From the IMG/VR virus record IMGVR_UViG_3300008120_000811, positions 1-21,704 of that record: a stretch of DNA of 21,704 nt. The stretch is one strand, 5' to 3'. Below, piece after piece: positions 288-15,525 of this stretch. A program made the position numbers and the translations under genes. The DNA is from a virus. The notes beneath the pieces were generated by a model. That model worked only from the letters and a program-made list of their open reading frames with translations. It had not been told where the DNA came from and ran no database searches. Position 1 is the first letter of the stretch; every line of letters starts with the position of its first letter.

Positions 288-1868
288 TTACTGAGCGCCA
301 AGCACAGGCGCTGCGCGATACAGACTGCGCCTAAGCGCCTCGATGTAGGGGTCTGCCTGACCCGCCAAGAATGCGGCTTCACCCATCAGACGCGGTGAGG
401 ACACAGCTGCTGTGCCAACCGCTGCAGGGATGCCACCAAGTGAGCCAGCGCCAATCGCAGACAACCCGCTGACGCCGCGCTGAATGCCACGCGGCATGAA
501 TTCGTTAAGCGCCTGACCGGCGAGCGCAGGACGCAACTGACGCCCGCCTTGCTGCTCCAGTTCATCCATCAACTGAGCGCGAGCGCCATAGTTAGTGTTG
601 ACGTTGTTGCGCATGATTGACTGAAGTTTACGCATCGCAGTGTCAGCAGTAGCGCGGTCACCAAGCGACAGTGTGCGAGTGATTTCATCAATCAAGTCGG
701 ACGCTTCTGTGTATTCCTTCATCGTCTTGGCATAGGTTGGGGCTTGAGCCTCAATCTGGCGTTTGACGCTGTTGTACACATTGTCCACTGCAGCGCGGAC
801 ATCACGCGCCTCAAGCGGGGCCGCACTCTTGATAGCCCCAATACGCTGCTTCAGCGCGTCTAGGCCCTCTGGCGTATGGAACTGAGCCGGGTCAAGTTGG
901 CGCCATGCGTTGACCTCATCGCCAACCTTCTGCAGAGCGTCCAAAACCTGCGGGTTGCGGGCCTGACCTTTGAACGTGAACCGATCAACAGAGTCCTGCA
1001 CAGCCTTGTTGACTGGATCAAGGTCAAGCACCGTCTTATCAGACGTTACAGAACCCATGTTCTGACGGTACTGCGCAGACCTGTTCTGCCTAATCGTCTC
1101 AAGGTTCGCCTTGGCGTCATCCAGAACATCCATCATGTTGGCATTGCCACGCATGTTCTCGCGGAAGGCCTTGGCTTCAGTCCCGCCTGCCCTGCCTGCT
1201 GCATACGCTCCGCGCAGAGCCTCGCTGCCTGCGCCAGTGGTAGCGCCAACCATCTCTCTGCCAGCAGCAACTGCGCCCTTCAGCACCTTGCCAGCACCCG
1301 GCAACGCGCCACCAATGGCTGCGCTGGTCAGCGTGTCTTCTGGGTTGACCAATGCACCCGCTGCGCCGCCTGTCACGGCACCGCCTGCAGTACGCGCAGC
1401 CATTGAGCCTGGAGCCATGCCGCCAGTGCGCAGAGCGCGTACAAGCATCTGCGGAGCGCCTGCAGCACGGGCACCAGCAGCAATGGGAGTGCCCACGCCA
1501 GCAGTGCCTGCAATCTCTCCCGCAATCTTGCCGCCTTGATACAGCATGGACTCAGGATCAGCGCCCAGTGAGCGCAAGCCCTCATCCATTGCCTGCCTGC
1601 GCTCCGGGTTGCCAATGGACTTGGTGTTGCCTGCAAGCAAGTCGTAAGGCGTCAGCAGCGTTGCACCGATGGACCCAGCACCACGCAGAGCGCCCGCAGC
1701 AAGGTTGCCAATCGGACGCACAAAGTCTCTGGCTTCCTGAGCAATCAGTTCGCGGCGTGTGGGAGTGGGTGCAGGTGCAGGAGTCGGCGCCGCTTCTGGC
1801 TCTGCTTGAGCCCGCAAGCGAGCGTTTGCCAGCGCAAGGGCTCGCTTCTGCTCAAGCGTCAGTTCCAT
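288..1868 (-). CDS. Putative internal virion / DNA ejection protein (526 aa)
   Basis: The 526-residue product begins MELTLEQKRALALANARLRA, followed by an Ala/Pro linker (about residues 21-38). Residues about 50-210 are very rich in Ala and Gly (for example GGAVTGGAAGALV) with weakly hydrophobic helices that could insert in a membrane. Residues about 230-430 are charged and helical, and the C-terminus (about 455-500) is again Gly/Ala-rich. This build, the length and the place next to the tail fibre match large ejected internal proteins of short-tailed phages, which help DNA cross the cell envelope. I see no lysozyme or transglycosylase motif. The ATG at 1868 overlaps the end of the preceding gene by 10 bases and has GAGGAG about 10 bases upstream. 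The role is inferred from composition and position, not from a catalytic motif. Confidence 0.65.
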   Translation of the reverse strand: MELTLEQKRALALANARLRAQAEPEAAPTPAPAPTPTRRELIAQEARDFVRPIGNLAAGALRGAGSIGATLLTPYDLLAGNTKSIGNPERRQAMDEGLRSLGADPESMLYQGGKIAGEIAGTAGVGTPIAAGARAAGAPQMLVRALRTGGMAPGSMAARTAGGAVTGGAAGALVNPEDTLTSAAIGGALPGAGKVLKGAVAAGREMVGATTGAGSEALRGAYAAGRAGGTEAKAFRENMRGNANMMDVLDDAKANLETIRQNRSAQYRQNMGSVTSDKTVLDLDPVNKAVQDSVDRFTFKGQARNPQVLDALQKVGDEVNAWRQLDPAQFHTPEGLDALKQRIGAIKSAAPLEARDVRAAVDNVYNSVKRQIEAQAPTYAKTMKEYTEASDLIDEITRTLSLGDRATADTAMRKLQSIMRNNVNTNYGARAQLMDELEQQGGRQLRPALAGQALNEFMPRGIQRGVSGLSAIGAGSLGGIPAAVGTAAVSSPRLMGEAAFLAGQADPYIEALRRSLYRAAPVLGAQ

Positions 1869-3061
1869 AACGCACGCTCCTCAGGAGTCATTACGGCCCA
1901 GACTTTTGGGTCCACCCCGGCTGGCACTGATCCGCTTGCAGCCGCGCCCTGATTCAGACTCTTGTATTTGGTCTGCAGTTTGCGCAGTTCATCCAAGGCC
2001 GCAAGTCGCTCGCGCACAGGCACAGTCCTGTCACCAACCTTGCCCGCCATTGTGGTGTAAACCTGCACATCGAAGTTCGACTGCGGGCCTTCCATACGCG
2101 GCACGTTGGCAACCAGCCAGCCTGACAGCGTTTCAAGCTGACCAGCCTTGACTGCGGCGTCTCTGCTGACGCCTACAGCGCGGCCTGCAGCATCAAGAAC
2201 TGCGCCTGCTCCGCTACCAGTTGGGCCTGACTTGAGGATGCCTTCTGCTTGCGTCAGTGCAGTCAGCAGTTTGTCGCCTGTCTTGCCTGCGGCGACTGCT
2301 TCTGCGCCTTGCTTGGCGGTTTCGGTTGCAGTTGTCTTGGCGCCAGCAATGCGGCCCTGCAATGTTGGATCAGCCGCCGCGCCAATAACAGGCTGACCAT
2401 TAGCGCCAGCAATCGGCTCCATGCGCCCCGTGCGAGAGTTGAACGCCATGACGCCCTGAGCAGTCTGCACAGGCTGAAAGTAAGGCTGTGCGCCACCGCC
2501 TGATGCACGTATCTCACGCCGCAAAACAGCATCTCTTTCTGCCTGTTCCCGCCGCGCATCAATGCTTGCCTGCTGCGCACGCCGCTGCTCTGCCAACCTC
2601 TCAGCCTGACTTGCAGCCTGAGCCTCAAGCCGATCAGCCAACTCAATTTCACCGGACAGCCGAGCAATCTGCGCCTCGCGCTTGGCGCCTGGGTCAACGA
2701 TGTACTGCCCATCAGGCGTCACCATGCCCTTGCCTACACGCATCGGCTGCTGGGCTGCGGCTGCACGCCTCAGAAACTGCGTCTGCACAGGCTCAAACCG
2801 CTCGCCAGCAAACTGCGCAGCCAGAGCATTCAGCATGGCTGCCTGTCCTGACTCACCTTGCTGGCGTCCGTAAGCCTGAAGGGCACTCATGTCATCTTCT
2901 TGAGCCAACAACGCATCGCGCTCTCTGCGCCTTTGCATTGATAGCGGCAACGCAGGCGCAGACTGCACATTCTGCGTCAGCACACCGCCAGGAGATGACA
3001 CGCCAAGCGACATGGGCAGCATCCGCCGCCTCATGGAATCAATGTAGAACTCCTCGGCCAT
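1859..3061 (-). CDS. Putative ejection / DNA transfer protein (400 aa)
   Basis: I place the start at the ATG at 3061 (MAEEFYIDSMRRR), one base after the stop of the preceding gene (TGACATG); an upstream GTG at 3106 would overlap that gene by 44 bases and adds unconvincing sequence. Residues about 30-200 are helical and rich in Arg, Gln and Ala, with a long coiled-coil-like stretch around 125-185 (ASQAERLAEQRRAQQ). The C-terminal third carries a block I recognise from podovirus internal-virion proteins: AEGILKSGPTGSGAG, then LSGWLVANVPRMEGPQSNFD and VYTTMAGKVGDRTVPVRERL. The ending DPKVWAVMTPEERALW resembles other phage virion proteins. It forms a block with the 119- and 526-residue neighbours, the likely set ejected with the DNA. 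The function is inferred; the gene call is firm. Confidence 0.7.
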   Translation of the reverse strand: MAEEFYIDSMRRRMLPMSLGVSSPGGVLTQNVQSAPALPLSMQRRRERDALLAQEDDMSALQAYGRQQGESGQAAMLNALAAQFAGERFEPVQTQFLRRAAAAQQPMRVGKGMVTPDGQYIVDPGAKREAQIARLSGEIELADRLEAQAASQAERLAEQRRAQQASIDARREQAERDAVLRREIRASGGGAQPYFQPVQTAQGVMAFNSRTGRMEPIAGANGQPVIGAAADPTLQGRIAGAKTTATETAKQGAEAVAAGKTGDKLLTALTQAEGILKSGPTGSGAGAVLDAAGRAVGVSRDAAVKAGQLETLSGWLVANVPRMEGPQSNFDVQVYTTMAGKVGDRTVPVRERLAALDELRKLQTKYKSLNQGAAASGSVPAGVDPKVWAVMTPEERALWN

Positions 3062-3062
3062 G

Positions 3063-3422
3063 TCAGAGCCCGCCGCCGTAGTCAGCCGTGTCCATCGAGC
3101 CGTCACCAGTCATGCCCATGCGCTTGCGCCGCAGTTTCTCTTGCATTGCACGCAAGGCCGCGCCCTGCGTCTCATTCATGCCGCGCATCGCAGTGTCTTG
3201 TCCCTTCTGCGCCTTGCCAGCCATGTAGCCCTGGCCCAACTGAGCCGCGTACTGCGTCAGAGAGGGCGGCACATAGTGTTTGCCGATCATCTGACCTTGG
3301 GGGCCTTCCATTGACTGACCGCGCAGCGCGTCGATCTGCTTTTGCTTGCGCATCATCTCCACTTCTTCTGGGCGCATGGCGCCCATCTGAAGCAGGTACT
3401 CAAACATCATGTCGTCATTCAT
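3063..3422 (-). CDS. Small Met/Gln-rich virion-associated protein (119 aa)
   Basis: The 119-residue product starts MNDDMMFEYLLQMGAMRPEE, is rich in Met, Gln and Lys, and is predicted to be largely helical with one Gly-containing middle section (HYVPPSLTQYAAQLGQGYMA). No catalytic motif is seen. The ATG at 3422 follows the stop of the S74 protein by one base (TGACATG), and its own stop is one base before the next gene, so it looks translationally coupled on both sides. In short-tailed phages a small protein of this kind often precedes the larger ejection proteins, so a role as a minor internal virion protein or assembly chaperone is plausible. That role is inference from position and size only. 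Confidence 0.6.
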   Translation of the reverse strand: MNDDMMFEYLLQMGAMRPEEVEMMRKQKQIDALRGQSMEGPQGQMIGKHYVPPSLTQYAAQLGQGYMAGKAQKGQDTAMRGMNETQGAALRAMQEKLRRKRMGMTGDGSMDTADYGGGL

Positions 3423-3423
3423 G

Positions 3424-5916
3424 TCACAACTCCGCGTAGTTGACAGTCAAGTAGCCATTCTGATGCCGCTTCACCAAGTCAGGACGCACCGCCTGCAGTT
3501 CCTGAGCCATAACGCCAACCTGCGGATAGCCGAGCATCGTGTATTCGTAGATGCCAACGCCCGTGGCGTGCGTCCCGATGCGCTTAATGTTCCGCTTCAA
3601 ACGCCTATCAGAGAACATGAATGCGGCAGAGGCAGGATTGCTCAGTGCAGCACTACCAAGCGAGAACAACCCGCCCATTGTGTTGGCACCTGCAGCCTGC
3701 TGCGCGTTGTAAGCGCCCAACGCGGCGTCATAACCCATCTGAGTGGCGCCCAGAATGTTAGGCGTCTCTGACCGCTGTGCAGACACAAACGATGGCATCT
3801 GCGGCATGTTGACCTGCTGACCAGACAGCAGCGCGTTCATCTCGTTCAGAGACATGCCACGACGCTGCATTTGCTCTGCAATAGCCTGCTGGCGCAGCTG
3901 GTTCTGGAAAGCTGCGTACTGCTGGTTCAAAGCCTGCTGCTGGGCCAGCGCAGAGTTCTGCGCATTGAACCGTTGCAGATCAAGCGCCCCAGCCTGTCCC
4001 AATGCCTGATTGCGGAACTGCTGCGAGGCCAAGTCCTGCTGGAACGCTTGTGACCCAGCACGGTTGGCAAGGTCAGCCTGCGCCATGTTCTGGCCGAACA
4101 ACTGCTGCTGTGCTTGATTGCCAAACTGTGCCGCGCCAAGGTTCTGCTGAAAGGCCTGATTGACAGCCTGATTACGGAACTGATCCGATGCAAGACCTTG
4201 CTGAAAAGCCTGCCCTGCAGCCTGATTGCCCGCCTGCCCTGCAGCCATGTTCTGAGAGAACTGCTGGCCCAGCGCCTGATTGGCAAACTGATTGGCAGAC
4301 AAGTCCTGCCCAAACCGCTGCGCCTGAGCGCGGTTAAACGCCTCGTTGGCGCCCACCGCTTGATTAAACGCTTGCTGGGTTGCTTGATTGGCAAACTGAC
4401 CGCCAGCCAAGTTCTGCTGGAAGCGTTGCCCCTGCGCCTGATTGGCTGCTTGAGTCGCTGCAAGTGCTTGGTTAAAGGCCTGCTGGGTTGCCTGATTGCC
4501 AAACTGCCCAGCCGTAACGCCCTGCTGGAACTGCTGCCCAAGGGCTTGGTTCGCTGCCTGTCGAGCGCCCAGAGCCTGCTGGTACGCCTGCTGCGTGGCT
4601 TGGTTGCCAAATTGTCCAGATGCTAAACCTTGCTGGAACTGTTGCCCCAGAGCCTGATTACCAGCTTGCTGCGCTGACATGGCCTGATTGAATGCCTGTT
4701 GCGCCGCTTGGTTGCGGAACTGATTAGCAGACAAGCCCTGTCCAAACGCCTGTTGCGCAGCCTGATTGGCAAACTGCCCGCCAGTCACATCCTCGTTGAA
4801 CGCCTGCTGCCGCGCTCCCATGCCCATGCTGAACAAACGCTGCGCTTCATTGCCAGCCGTATCCAGTGCGTTGAACCGCTCTGCAGCCTGACGCTGCTGC
4901 AAGTCAGCCAATGCCCGCGTGTAGCCTTCAGAGCCAACCGTAAAGCCTTGGTTAGCAAGTTGCGTCTCAAGCTGCTGCTGCTGGCGCTCATGCACAGGCT
5001 GCATACGCTCCATCAACGAACGCGCCACATTGTCCCTGTACGATGAATCAAACTGCGGCAACGCCGGGTTGTCACCAGTGGTCAAAGCCCGCTGCACGCT
5101 TTCTGTCTGTGCAGTTCGGGCCAGATCGCTGGTCATCGGGTTGAACTGAGCGTTTAAGCCAAAGTTCTGCACGCCCCGCTGGACGCCACCCTGCATGGGA
5201 TCGAATGACGTTCCTAACGCATAGTTCTGAACGCCGCGCTGCAAGTTGCCTTGCATGGGATCAAACCCGGTTGCAACAGGAGTTCCATCGACGTTGCGCT
5301 GTAGACCACTTGTCATTGAGTCAAAGCCAAGCGCCAACGGAGTTGTGTTTGTGCTTGTTCTGACGCGGCCCGTCATCGGGTCAAAACTGCGCTGCAAATC
5401 GGTTTGCTGAGAATCGAAAGTCAATCCAGTCAACGCAGAATCAACGCCCATCTGAGGGCCACCAAAGTTGAACCCGCCAACAACATTTTGGCGGTTTACA
5501 TCGGTGGACAACCCAGGCGTGTAGTCCGTAATGCCGGTGTTGAGCGTTGACGGCCCAGTCAGTTGGGCCATTTGCGGCAGGTTCTGCCAGTTGAACGGCT
5601 GCGAATACTCGTTCGCAACACGCCCCATGAAATCACCAGCAAGCGCAGACCTGTCAGCCTGCAGCCCCAACTGATCATTGAGCGCAGACTGTAGGCCAGG
5701 GGCCAGCGTGTTGTTCTGCGTCCATGACGTAACCGTCTGACCAGTTGCAGGATCAGTCGTTGCGTTGGTGCCCCATGTCTGCGAGCCAAACGGCGTGTTG
5801 ATCGTCGGGCGGTTCGCAAAGTTCTGAATGTTGGTCAGTTCTTTGCTTGCTTCCGCTTGCGTTTCTGCCGCAGCAACGTAATTCGGTGCTGGAGGAGGAC
5901 TGCCCTTACCGCCCAT
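3424..5916 (-). CDS. Long repeat-containing virion protein with C-terminal S74-type chaperone domain (830 aa)
   Basis: The N-terminus (MGGKGSPPPAPNYVAAAETQ) and the following TPFGSQTWGTN segment are typical of a podovirus virion protein. Residues about 178-277 form five 20-residue units beginning FDPM or similar. Residues 278-383 are helical. Residues 384-635 are exactly fourteen 18-residue units (consensus NQAxxQxFxQxLxxxQFx). The last 62 residues match the intramolecular chaperone auto-processing domain (peptidase S74): FSDRRLKRNIKRI, GIYEYTMLG, VGVMAQELQ and GYLTVNY. Ser769 and Lys774 have the five-residue spacing of the self-cleaving Ser-Lys dyad, so cut before Ser769 is predicted. The family helps fibres trimerise and is then released. 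The ATG at 5916 has GGAG upstream and overlaps the GNAT-like gene by 11 bases. It could be a fibre, a tail needle-like rod or an ejected protein; the sequence alone does not decide. Confidence 0.8.
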   Translation of the reverse strand: MGGKGSPPPAPNYVAAAETQAEASKELTNIQNFANRPTINTPFGSQTWGTNATTDPATGQTVTSWTQNNTLAPGLQSALNDQLGLQADRSALAGDFMGRVANEYSQPFNWQNLPQMAQLTGPSTLNTGITDYTPGLSTDVNRQNVVGGFNFGGPQMGVDSALTGLTFDSQQTDLQRSFDPMTGRVRTSTNTTPLALGFDSMTSGLQRNVDGTPVATGFDPMQGNLQRGVQNYALGTSFDPMQGGVQRGVQNFGLNAQFNPMTSDLARTAQTESVQRALTTGDNPALPQFDSSYRDNVARSLMERMQPVHERQQQQLETQLANQGFTVGSEGYTRALADLQQRQAAERFNALDTAGNEAQRLFSMGMGARQQAFNEDVTGGQFANQAAQQAFGQGLSANQFRNQAAQQAFNQAMSAQQAGNQALGQQFQQGLASGQFGNQATQQAYQQALGARQAANQALGQQFQQGVTAGQFGNQATQQAFNQALAATQAANQAQGQRFQQNLAGGQFANQATQQAFNQAVGANEAFNRAQAQRFGQDLSANQFANQALGQQFSQNMAAGQAGNQAAGQAFQQGLASDQFRNQAVNQAFQQNLGAAQFGNQAQQQLFGQNMAQADLANRAGSQAFQQDLASQQFRNQALGQAGALDLQRFNAQNSALAQQQALNQQYAAFQNQLRQQAIAEQMQRRGMSLNEMNALLSGQQVNMPQMPSFVSAQRSETPNILGATQMGYDAALGAYNAQQAAGANTMGGLFSLGSAALSNPASAAFMFSDRRLKRNIKRIGTHATGVGIYEYTMLGYPQVGVMAQELQAVRPDLVKRHQNGYLTVNYAEL
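4012..4767 (-). repeat. Fourteen tandem 54-bp (18-residue) coding repeats
   Basis: Residues 384-635 of the 830-residue protein divide into 14 units of exactly 18 residues with no insertion or deletion. Each begins N-Q/R-A and most follow NQAxxQxFxQxLxxxQFx. The DNA copies diverge at many third positions, so the array is old and held by protein selection rather than being a recent slippage product. Eighteen residues equal five turns of an alpha helix, so one face (Ala3, Phe8, Leu12, Phe17) would repeat in register along a nearly straight rod. Confidence 0.9.
5086..5385 (-). repeat. Five tandem 60-bp (20-residue) coding repeats
   Basis: Residues 178-277 of the 830-residue protein hold five 20-residue units starting FDPM, FDSM, FDPM, FDPM and FNPM, each followed by a conserved Leu/Val-Gln-Arg or similar (for example FDPMQGNLQRGVQ). 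A degenerate sixth copy (FDSQQTDLQRS) precedes them. The Asp-Pro/Gly turns and alternating hydrophobics suggest beta structure, unlike the helical 18-residue array later in the protein. Confidence 0.8.
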
Positions 5917-6322
5917 GTCTTGCTCCTTTGAGCCAACGACACTCGTCGGCCTTCATTTCAAACATCACAGCGTCGATTGTCTCGGCAATCTGCCGAAACC
6001 CCAACTTCTTGTTCATCGCTAACGCTTCATCCAAGTGATTTGGCGTCAGCCCGTAAACCGCCTCTTTGCCACAGGTCACAAACGGATACTCAAACGCTGC
6101 ACGCCAGAGGCTGCGTGTCAGCGCGTGTTCGTTGTCGAAAGCAACGTGCATCCAGCATGACTTTTCTGTCCAAGCGTTGTAAGCAACCGCGCAAGCAATC
6201 GTTCCATCATCACGCATCGAGGCAATGCACCGCAGATCACTTGACCAAGGCAGGCGCGTTTGCCGGTTCATCCATTCCCAGACGACCGGCGGCTGGCCCG
6301 GTTGGTCGGTGACTAGCTTCAT
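5906..6322 (-). CDS. GNAT-like small protein (138 aa)
   Basis: The 138-residue product has the order of a small GNAT acetyltransferase fold: a central strand pair (IASMRDDGTIACAVAYNAW), a strand (SCWMHVAFD), a helix (TRSLWRAAFEYPF), and a C-terminal section ALAMNKKLGFRQIAE followed by a last strand (AVMFEMK) like the end of many GNAT proteins. I do not see a clear acetyl-CoA binding R/Q-x-x-G-x-G/A loop, so it may be a non-catalytic relative. T7-like phages carry a small virion protein (gp13) of about the same length that also looks GNAT-derived and is encoded beside the ejection proteins; by analogy this may be a virion or assembly protein rather than an enzyme. Start and stop overlap both neighbours (ATGA at 6319-6322; 11 bases at 5906-5916). 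Confidence 0.6.
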   Translation of the reverse strand: MKLVTDQPGQPPVVWEWMNRQTRLPWSSDLRCIASMRDDGTIACAVAYNAWTEKSCWMHVAFDNEHALTRSLWRAAFEYPFVTCGKEAVYGLTPNHLDEALAMNKKLGFRQIAETIDAVMFEMKADECRWLKGARHGR

Positions 6323-7320
6323 CTCTCAACGGTTTCTTGGTCCGTCATTCCTGGCGCCCGCCTTGTCAGCGCCTCTTGCGCCATCATGTCAAACAGTGCT
6401 AATTCCATCAGTTCTTGGTCTGTCAGTTGGTCATACGATGAAGGCGCAGCCACTGCAGCAGGCAACGTGCTTGTAATGTCAGTGTTCAGTAAGTCTGCGT
6501 AATCGCTAAAGTCTTCAATGTCTGCCACAGTGACGTTGCCAACATTTGAGATTAGTCTGTCGTTTGTTTGTGACGGCGCAGCTGCGTCTACTTGAGCAGT
6601 CGGTTCCATGAACACATCCGACTGCTGCACAAGCCCAAGCTCGCGGTCAATCTCAAAGTCATCGGCTGGGTCAGTTGGAGGCGCAACCGTGTCAGAAAGA
6701 CCAACTTCATTCACAGTGACGCTAGGCGTCCTTGTGGTCGTGGTCGTGTTCGTTATTGGCGCTGAAACTATTGGCCCACCAAAAACGTCCGACTGCTGAA
6801 CAATCCCCAACTCTCTGTCAACTTCAAAGTCGTCAGCTGCGTCTTTTGGAGGCGCAGGCGTGTCAGTGACATCCACCTCTAGCACCGTCACAGTCGGCGT
6901 CTTTGCTTCAGTCCCAGTTCCCCTTCTCACAACAGAAACCGGGGTCTTCGGCTCTGGTCGCAAAGGTGGATTGCCTGCAGGAGCAGGCGTCGGTGCTGGA
7001 GTTGGTGAAGGCGCGGGTGTTGGTGACGGTGCCGGAGTTGGCGTCAAAGGTTTTGGCGCTGGCGCTACTGGAGGAGAAGGAGAGCGTGGAGTAGGCGCAG
7101 GGGTTACTGGCGTTCTTGGCGGCGGCGCCACCGTTGGCAAACGCAGCACAGGTGGGGCAAACGCAAGCCCTGTCCTTGGCGAACGCACAAAATTGATGGG
7201 TAAGCCTATGTTCTGCGAGTTAGGCAGCAGAACAACACCAGAAGGCACGCCTTGCGAATCACTAGGCGCACTGCGCAGCGCCTGAATCAAAGCACTTGAA
7301 TACACGGGTGCCGTTGCCAT
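6319..7320 (-). CDS. Proline-rich protein with internal duplication (333 aa), unrecognised
   Basis: I do not recognise the family. Residues about 1-65 may be a small folded head (SSALIQALRSAPS, then GLPINFVRSPRTGLAF). Residues about 66-118 are a Pro/Ala/Thr linker (repeated TPAPSP). Two copies of a 43-residue unit follow (141-183 and 198-240), each with TP(T/S)VTV at the start and an acidic DDFE(V/I)DRELG(I/L)VQQSDVF core. The rest is acidic and ends in a helix rich in Met/Leu. The ATG overlaps the stop of the nozzle-like gene (TAATG), so the two are coupled. Placement between the nozzle-like protein and the GNAT/S74 genes suggests a tail accessory or connector that carries short acidic binding motifs on a flexible arm; that is inference only. 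Confidence 0.65.
   Translation of the reverse strand: MATAPVYSSALIQALRSAPSDSQGVPSGVVLLPNSQNIGLPINFVRSPRTGLAFAPPVLRLPTVAPPPRTPVTPAPTPRSPSPPVAPAPKPLTPTPAPSPTPAPSPTPAPTPAPAGNPPLRPEPKTPVSVVRRGTGTEAKTPTVTVLEVDVTDTPAPPKDAADDFEVDRELGIVQQSDVFGGPIVSAPITNTTTTTRTPSVTVNEVGLSDTVAPPTDPADDFEIDRELGLVQQSDVFMEPTAQVDAAAPSQTNDRLISNVGNVTVADIEDFSDYADLLNTDITSTLPAAVAAPSSYDQLTDQELMELALFDMMAQEALTRRAPGMTDQETVER
6601..6900 (-). repeat. Direct duplication of a 43-codon acidic unit
   Basis: Copy 1 is 6772-6900 and copy 2 is 6601-6729, offset by 171 bp (57 codons). At protein level the cores are DDFEVDRELGIVQQSDVF and DDFEIDRELGLVQQSDVF, while the linker between them (GPIVSAPITNTTTTTR) is not repeated. The copies show conservative amino acid changes and synonymous differences, so both have been under selection. 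Confidence 0.85.
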
Positions 7321-13723: not shown

Positions 13724-15525
13724 TTACCCCATCAACAACATGATTTCTTCTTCTCGCCTGCGCTTGATCAACCTGCGCTGGCGCTCCTGCTCAAAGGCAA
13801 TCCGAGCTTGGCGTCTTATTTCTGCCTCTCGCACGCGCTGCGCCTCGATGCCTTGCTTTTCCAGCACAGACATGACCATGCGAACCACAGCCTGCGAGTC
13901 AAACTGAGGCGGTACAGGAATCGGGATAGCCTGGGACTTGGTGACAACCGCCACCTTGCCCTTGACGTTGACAACCTTGGCCTCTTTTTCCTCGACAGGC
14001 TCAATGGCGTTGAGGCAACCTGCTCAAACTGCTGCAGTGTCGGGCTGAAGAACTGATTGCCAGCTTGGAAGCCCGCCACCCAAGTGACATATCCAGGCTC
14101 GACGTAATCAACCTCAACGTAATCTTCAAACGTCAGGTTCTGTGTCGTGCCGCCTTGGCTGACAGTAGCCGCGTAGAACGTCTGAGCATTGGTGTACAGA
14201 CTCGGCGCCAACGTGACAGTTCCTGGCGCCACTGTGGGCGCGTAGAACGTCTGAGAATTGCTGTAGAGCGATGGCGCCAGATTGACTGCACCACGCCCGA
14301 CAGTCGGCGCGTAGAACGTCTGAGTGTTCGTATACAGGTCGGGCAGCAGCGTCTGAACGCCACCCGTCTGAGAGACAACCGCGCTGTAAAACGTCTGCGT
14401 GTTCGTATACAGCCCAGGCGTCAGGGTATTAGACGCGCTCGCCGTTGGGCTATAGAACGTCTGAGCGTTGCTGTACAGACTGGCCGTAAGAGTTACGCTG
14501 GTGCTGACAGTCGGTGCAAAGAACGTCTGTGTGTTCGTGTACAGGGTAGGCGCAAGCGTGTTGCTGCGCGTGACCGTTGGCCCGTAGAAGGTCTGGGTGT
14601 TGGTGTACAGGCTTGGCGTCAGAGCCTGCGTTGATCCACCTTGCGTGACGTCAGGGCTGTAGAACGTCTGATCGTTTGTGTACAGCGCGGGGGTCAAAGT
14701 GACCGCGCCGGGCGTTACCGTGGGGTTGTGGAAAGTGTTGGTGTTGGTAAAGAGCGCCGGGGTTAGCGTCTGCGCTGCCGCACCTTCGCGCACACGTAGC
14801 AGAACAACTGGGCCGCGCACGTTGGTGAGCGTGCCGCCCACCGTCGTCGTCACTGTTGGCGCAGTGGTGCTCGACCCTGCGGTGACCGCTGCCCAGGCGC
14901 TGTAGCCGCCGATGTCGTTGCCGGTGCCGCTATCAGGCTCGTTAAGTTCGGTGGCCGTGCCGAACGTGGCACCCGTGGCAGTGATGCTCTGTGCGCTGAA
15001 CTGCGACGGTGTAGTGACGTCGGTCGGGATACACATCGCCCAGATGGCGCGGTCCCCGGTCTGGAAGTTGGTTGCCGTTGTCCCGTTTGTGAGCGCAATC
15101 GCCATTGGCGATGTCGGCGTGGTCGTGCGCTGGCCGTCTGCTGAGCCGAATTCAGCCGCCCCAGCACCCTTGGGGATGCGAACGATGAAGGCCCAGCAAA
15201 TCTCGTTCTGCCCAACCGTGACGGCAAGAGTGCCTGTCTGTCCCGCTACCGGCGTGTTCCACGAATAGACGCGTAGGTTCGTGTTGCCGGTATCCTGGCC
15301 GATGGTGGTGCCGTAACCACCCGCAGCCAGCAGTTCCTCACGCAGCGTCCAGCCGTTTGGCGTGGTAACCGTGCCGCCGTTGACGTTTGCGCTGAGTGGC
15401 TTCTGGCCGACGAACAGCAGCACGACATCCGATGCGAGGATGCCGGTTGGGTACGCAGGAGATACGCTGGTGCCGCCTGCCGCTGAATACGCGGCTGCTG
15501 CTGCTACTGGGGTGCCGAGTGCCAC
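13724..15525 (-). CDS. Fibre-like virion protein with nine TNTxTFY repeats; C-terminal end in the -1 frame
   Basis: The GTG start at 15525 has AAGGGG upstream. Residues 1-250 form a beta-rich domain (DVVLLFVGQKPLSAN, WAFIVRIPKGAG). Residues 254-463 hold nine units of 22-25 residues of the form L-x-P-x-LYTNxQTFYxPTV, a repeat familiar from phage/prophage tail proteins. Frame 0 then runs VAGFQAGNQFFSPTLQQFEQ and on into implausible Arg/Ser/Trp/Cys-rich sequence that stops at 13816. The -1 frame from about 14023 gives a natural sequence (LNAIEPVEEKEAKVVNVKGK, then SQAIPIPVPPQFDS) with a helical Arg/Glu-rich end stopping at 13724. Joined, the product is about 600 residues. The cause may be programmed -1 frameshifting or a missing base near 14014. 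Tail or head fibre role is inferred from the repeats. Confidence 0.75.
13983..13990 (-). other. Candidate -1 slippery site in the fibre-like gene
   Basis: Frame-0 codons AGG AAA AAG AGG lie at 13992-13981, giving the run G-AAA-AAG where both lysine tRNAs could shift back one base. A -1 shift joins SLSRKK to EAKVVNVKG and opens the natural C-terminal frame through to 13724. The first base is G rather than A, so it is not a perfect X-XXY-YYZ heptamer; an indel further upstream is an equal alternative. Confidence 0.3.
14137..14766 (-). repeat. Nine tandem 22-25-residue LYTNxQTFYxPTV coding repeats
   Basis: Residues 254-463 comprise nine units; each has Leu-x-Pro-x-Leu-Tyr/Phe-Thr/Ser-Asn, a polar pair, Thr-Phe-Tyr/Phe/His and a Val/Thr-rich tail. 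Units vary from 22 to 25 residues only in the tail, where inserts of up to three residues (SQGGTTQN-like) occur at every second or third unit. Alternating polar/nonpolar residues point to beta strands, as in fibre shafts or stacked beta repeats. Confidence 0.85.

Follow-up and report, generated by a model that had tools for sequence, protein, structure and literature searches.

The virus record analysed here (21.7 kb; "the window" below is this whole stretch of 21,704 nucleotides) encodes an 830-residue protein in which two repeat arrays, different in sequence and period and about 100 residues apart in one gene, change length in lockstep. The gene is the open reading frame at 3424-5916 on the minus strand. 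One array is built of 18-residue units and is predicted to be helical; the second, upstream in the same protein, changes by exactly 20 residues for every 36 of the helical array. This second array had gone unnoticed, and no description of coupled arrays was found in the literature searched. Since the helical array changes length only in step with the second, the chain is likely to be folded back along itself as a modular rod. Our reading of the function is tentative. On balance we favour a protein that is the first of the ejection module in a podovirus of the Mx8/P22 type, encoded where gp7 lies in P22 and gp14 in T7 and enlarged by the fold-back rod.

The 18-residue array

Residues 384-635 (4012-4767, minus strand) split exactly into 14 units of 18 residues without an indel, as the earlier note had seen. 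Period analysis shows that they also form seven units of 36. Identity autocorrelation at lags of 36, 72, 54 and 18 exceeds that of shuffled sequences by 13-18 SD, and because identity is higher at lag 36 (0.547) than at lag 18 (0.445) the real unit is a 36-residue pair of alternating half-units, NQATQQAFNQALGARQAA and NQALGQQFQQGLASGQFG. Degenerate copies carry the 18-residue phase out to about residue 366 on one side and about residue 672 on the other. Asn1, Ala3, Gln6 and Gln10 are invariant across the 14 units, and N1, N19, Q6 and Q10 are invariant among 119 36-mers taken from relatives. The array has no proline and few charges, and many units carry Gly at positions 13, 15 and 18. Codon identity at identical residues is no higher than codon usage predicts (53 of 128 at lag 36, with 63 expected). 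The repeats in the window are thus old, which bears out the proposal that they are not products of recent duplication and rules out a recent tandem duplication there. Antisense open frames lie over the array on the plus strand (3871-5046; for example 4114-4626, 170 aa) and look like by-products of Gln/Ala/Asn-rich codons rather than genes.

AF2 predicts long helices here. Run without an alignment it makes the array helical at a pLDDT of about 50-70; with a 65-sequence alignment it places helices at residues 330-462, 473-573 and 599-697 (pLDDT about 50-87, best at 82-87 over 480-560), so that the full predicted helical stretch around the array covers residues 330-697 (3826-4929, minus strand). 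The run was made on the monomer and the model has a pTM of 0.25, for which reason only secondary structure is taken from it. A beta-solenoid, curli-like or hexapeptide, was rejected on the same ground, the prediction being of long alpha-helices both with and without the alignment.

Ala3, Phe8, Leu12 and Phe17 had been thought to form a single hydrophobic stripe. With 100 degrees for each residue, their angles are 300, 80, 120 and 260 degrees, which puts Ala3 and Phe17 (260-300) on one face of the helix and Phe8 and Leu12 (80-120) on the opposite one. The dominant hydrophobic period in the array is 4.5 residues (0.349) as against 3.6 (0.076), and the one-stripe reading with its 3.6-residue period is discarded. 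Conservation follows the same division: in the 119 36-mers the conserved positions make up two opposite faces with the variable positions between them, one face consisting of Gln6, Ala/Phe17, Gln10, Ala3, Ala14 and Ala7 and the other of Phe8, Asn1 and Leu12. A helix conserved on two opposite sides would suit a wall, or a core between two partners.

Length quanta and the ruler

Eighteen residues make five whole helical turns, so that multiples of 18 keep the flanks of an array in rotational phase. With A defined as the distance from the landmark QRLFxM to LRQQAIAE, A equals 9 modulo 18 in all 84 measurable distinct relatives. The values are 45, 63, 81, 99, 117, 135, 171, 207, 243, 279, 315 (the window) and 351; the quantum is broken in L042 (A = 74) and L202 (A = 90). 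The exact period noticed in the window is kept among relatives as length quanta of 18, which is what insertion into a single continuous helix would give. At least 36 changes of A are required on a tree of the flanking sequences alone.

The earlier note had also suggested that the rod might be a length-determining ruler for a tail or needle, and the exact quanta and the predicted helix both speak for that. The lengths of the neighbouring genes speak against it. A spans 45 to 351, yet lengths hold steady in tailA (about 250 aa), in tailB (about 538 aa) and in the genes downstream; arrays up to 16 units apart in length occur in relatives whose flanks are nearly identical, with neighbouring tail and ejection genes unchanged. 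The relatives L003 and L115, whose arrays are 288 residues apart, have near-equal neighbours counted stop to stop: tailA 250 and 250, tailB 538 and 538, the 119-aa gene 121 and 121, the 415-aa gene 400 and 398, the 526-aa gene 525 and 522. No neighbouring gene tested by length scaled with A. Since these genes stay constant as A changes, the rod does not act as their ruler; the comparison of repeat number set beforehand goes against the idea as far as gene lengths tell, and we hold a ruler to be highly improbable. Of the straight-rod design as first described, the predicted helix and the 18-residue quanta stand and the single stripe and the ruler fall; the 36-residue super-unit and the second array in lockstep had been missed.

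A second array in exact register

The second array consists of six 20-residue repeats (residues 163-282; 5071-5430, minus strand) with the consensus ~GGLQRGVQxTPLNTGFDPMT, and AF2 gives it a pLDDT of 33-47 and no predicted secondary structure. The inter-array linker (residues 283-365; 4822-5070, minus strand) includes a helix pair with a pLDDT of up to 89. The distance across it from YRD to QRLF is 66 residues in 79 of 79 relatives. When the length of the second array is measured as U, from GFNF to YRD, the relation U = 44 + 20(A-135)/36 is exact in 39 of 39 distinct sequences with A of at least 135, over seven lengths (U/A of 44/135, 64/171, 84/207, 104/243, 124/279, 144/315 and 164/351). Short forms (A < 135) depart from the exact 20:36 by up to about 10 residues.

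The register is retained when shared ancestry is removed. Among 23 phylogenetically disjoint pairs of unequal A, 22 show U changing in the same direction as A and one shows a tie, with a slope of 0.534 compared with 20/36 = 0.556; the eight disjoint pairs in which both members have A of at least 135 are all exact. L003 (A/U of 351/164) and L115 (63/4), with nearly identical flanks, differ by 288 = 8 x 36 residues in one array and by 160 = 8 x 20 in the other. Lengths of 315, 243 and 171 occur inside one near-identical lineage (L004, L006 and L026), and L015 and L053 carry recent duplications in both arrays.

A second clade (L129, L040, L199 and L194), about 30% identical to the window protein, has the same plan. 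Upstream units in the L040/L129 clade are 11 residues long (FNSGTPGVNTT) and are paired one to one with 18-residue helical units. Values of A of 295, 241, 187 and 133 go with a U* of 184, 151, 118 and 85, which amounts to 11 residues for each 18 without deviation. Applied to L197 (A = 277) ahead of measurement, the rule gave a U* of 173, the value then measured; L134, L200 and L204 are 2-4 residues off. Taken together, 20 per 36 and 11 per 18 mean one upstream half-unit of 10-11 residues for each 18-residue unit.

The positions of indels give the direction of the two arms. When close relatives are compared, the position of the gap measured from the C-terminus of the 20-residue array agrees with that measured from the N-terminus of the helical array. 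The correlation of indel positions is r = 0.92 in this antiparallel sense (n = 8, p = 0.001; two of the eight pairs, L004-L006 and L006-L026, share a lineage) and 0.06 in the parallel sense, which disfavours parallel packing; over all sixteen non-independent pairs the values are 0.77 and 0.43. The matching ends of both arrays adjoin the constant 66-residue linker. Because indel positions agree when counted from that linker, the two arms are probably antiparallel, forming a hairpin that runs along an extended arm, round the linker as its probable turn, and back along the helix. The geometry agrees, 18 residues at 1.5 A giving 27 A, or about 10 residues at 2.7 A. With the 20-residue array unmodelled, pLDDT uneven and pTM low, it is from lengths alone that we infer how the arms pack against each other.

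The protein, its family and its neighbourhood

Besides the arrays and the linker, the protein has a conserved N-terminal domain (residues 1-120; 5557-5916, minus strand) predicted by AF2 as helix, beta hairpin and helix, with near-invariant columns; pLDDT is 50-82 across residues 1-110 and about 55 past that. At the other end lies a Peptidase_S74 or chaperone of endosialidase domain (residues 769-816; 3469-3612, minus strand; Pfam E 1.3e-7, pLDDT about 95), shared with S74 proteins at large. This domain is missing from several lineages (L003, L012, L014, L033 and the L129 clade) that keep both arrays and the rest of the protein. Another IMG/VR contig, L001, carries an identical copy of the protein (100%), and a scan of bacterial genomes gave two loci only. 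An NCBIfam search with the 830-residue protein returned no match and a PDB sequence search only weak S74 matches. A PDB fold search with the AF2 model gave nothing below E 0.001, as expected given the low pTM and long helices, and BFVD matches are unnamed or S74 phage proteins without a function.

The protein matches the profiles phrog_6121 (virion structural protein, E 1.2e-50) and, weakly, phrog_4287 (DNA ejection protein, 8e-7). It belongs to the Mx8 p54 family (phrog_6121), having full-length profile similarity to p54 (hhalign probability 99.9, E 1.7e-33, with both arrays gapped) and a gene position after tailA, tailB and a GNAT gene. Mx8 p54 has the order tailA, tailB, GNAT, p54, then genes of about 119, 428 and 583 aa, and ends in S74 as the window protein does; unlike it, p54, the array-free ortholog, has 333 aa and lacks both arrays, at which the alignment is cleanly gapped. 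In the window the order is tailA, tailB, a 333-aa gene, GNAT, the 830-aa protein, 119 aa, 415 aa and 526 aa, which equals Mx8 p51-p57 with the 333-aa gene excepted and runs parallel to phiGT1 and to P22 4-10-26-14-7-20-16. The GNAT-like gene directly upstream (5906-6322, minus strand; phrog_4470, E 2.8e-23) is at the position of P22 gene 14 and T7 gene 13, and a GNAT gene followed by the counterpart of the array gene is an order common to Mx8 p53-p54 and phiGT1. Downstream, all on the minus strand, lie the 119-aa gene (3063-3422), syntenic with Mx8 p55, and two genes of the ejection module, that of 415 aa (1859-3106; phrog_33352), syntenic with p56, and that of 526 aa (288-1868), syntenic with p57, for which the PHROG profile search gave no confident family match. 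In BUCT555 the next gene encodes an SLT transglycosylase. The 333-aa protein between tailB and the GNAT gene (6319-7320, minus strand) is proline-rich and lies where P22 has the gene for its gp26 tail needle; relatives of this protein range from about 200 to 930 aa (stop to stop), and many loci have no match to it.

In phiGT1 the GNAT gene is named IVPA and is homologous to P22 gene 14, and IVPB and IVPD have Mx8 matches (PMC10386132). phiGT1 gp17 and EBPR podovirus 2 gp27 share the module, a block of the LNxxxALxxGxQV type and S74 with the window protein, but have 326-342 aa and no arrays. P22 gp7 (PF25688, phrog_598) likewise follows gene 14 and precedes genes 20 and 16, and is bridged to the window protein by PAE2_13 and H6/1 gp17: each of these has matches to phrog_598 and also, in part through S74, to phrog_6121. 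P22 gp7 differs in having 229 aa, no array, no S74 and no direct profile match. T7 gp14, after gp13 and before gp15/gp16, has 196 aa, no repeats and no detectable sequence match. The place next to a gene of the 14/13 type and ahead of two larger ejection genes is that of a first ejection protein. In size and membrane segments the protein departs from gp14-like proteins, which have 181-240 aa and several TM helices (PMC8954989): it has 830 aa, and its best 19-residue Kyte-Doolittle window is 1.16. Direct profile comparison by hhalign with P22 gp7 or T7 gp14 gave no match, the link running through intermediates. As the position fits and the direct comparison fails, the claim is limited to position and module and does not extend to membership of the gp7/gp14 family by sequence: synteny and profile matches make this a putative first ejection-module protein of Mx8/P22-like podoviruses.

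A proposed fold-back rod and its rivals

One arm of the proposed rod would be a long, continuous, straight alpha-helix of 18-residue units, each of five turns and 27 A, inserted into a helix already present in array-free relatives; such insertion would let its length change by whole 18-residue quanta only. The other, upstream and antiparallel, would probably run as an extended chain whose half-units have 10-11 residues (in the clade of the window, units of 20), a putative tape packed on the Phe8/Asn1/Leu12 face, where about 10 residues would cover the same rise. The 66-residue linker would make the turn. Each helix unit would need its partner segment, so that both arrays would gain and lose units together. 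The opposite Ala/Gln face may serve oligomerisation, possibly with assistance from the S74 chaperone.

The main rival is an external trimeric fibre or needle, in which S74 chaperones the trimer and the fold-back rod is a shaft whose length varies as fibre shafts do. It is suggested by S74 itself, best known on external trimeric fibres, and the C-terminal place of the domain, weak matches to PHROG tail fibres that do not reach beyond the S74 region and a rod length that varies without change in neighbouring genes all agree with it. We nevertheless think it unlikely: the gene stands where a first ejection protein stands rather than among fibre genes, S74 is lost in L003, L012, L014, L033 and the L129 clade with both arrays kept, and it occurs also on P22 gp7-like proteins such as PAE2_13. 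An alpha-solenoid, in which 36-residue helical hairpins and 20-residue beta-hairpins stack at about 10 A per unit into a short, thick array, would account for the 36-residue super-period and the glycines at 13, 15 and 18. It is decidedly improbable in view of the long uninterrupted helices predicted with and without an alignment and of the half-steps of 18 (A of 63, 81, 99 and 117 in the main clade; odd multiples of 18 in the second clade). Lockstep might also arise with no structural coupling if segments holding both arrays were swapped as cassettes among lineages, since phage genes recombine and the arrays are close together. This we judge very improbable: around the gap in the helical array the sequence is the same in L004, L006 and L026, which marks separate indels in one lineage; both arrays are recently duplicated in L015 and L053; and coupled origins would still have to be invoked for the exact 20:36 over seven lengths and for the 11:18 of another clade.

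For the preferred fold-back rod at the first-ejection-protein position, T7 offers an analogy. Once T7 has ejected its DNA, gp14 is present as a pair of antiparallel helices within a hexameric channel, which prolongs the nozzle (PMC11784390). A helical hairpin of greater length, encoded at the gp14 gene position, could extend a conduit of this kind, and uncharged Gln/Ala-rich faces would suit the passage of DNA. By this analogy the ejected rod may line or extend the DNA-delivery conduit, with an adjustable length that is not a ruler for the tail. Counting against this explanation, a straight helix of about 50 nm would barely fit a podovirus head. A bolder version, which we regard as doubtful, has several copies forming a tube whose wall is the antiparallel helix-plus-tape hairpin, the reach through the host envelope being set by adding or removing matched pairs of 18 helical and 10-11 extended residues; if true, this would be the first description of such a repeat-pair design in an ejection protein.

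That two unlike arrays stayed in exact register while lengths changed independently dozens of times amounts to a strong natural experiment. From lengths alone a contact topology follows, antiparallel with one segment of 10-11 residues per five helical turns, and the coupled arrays make specific, falsifiable predictions. The supposed ruler becomes a rod of freely tunable length, encoded where the first ejection protein stands; what that protein contributes to building the trans-envelope channel is poorly understood. Among the relatives, arrays that would measure from about 9 to about 50 nm when fully helical form a natural length series for probing what length does.

Tandem repeats occur elsewhere in the window as well. 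A tail-like protein (13816-15525, minus strand) carries repeats of about 23 residues (69 bp) at 14161-14324, with the motif LTPSLYTNTQTFYxPTV (TRF), unrelated to the coupled arrays.
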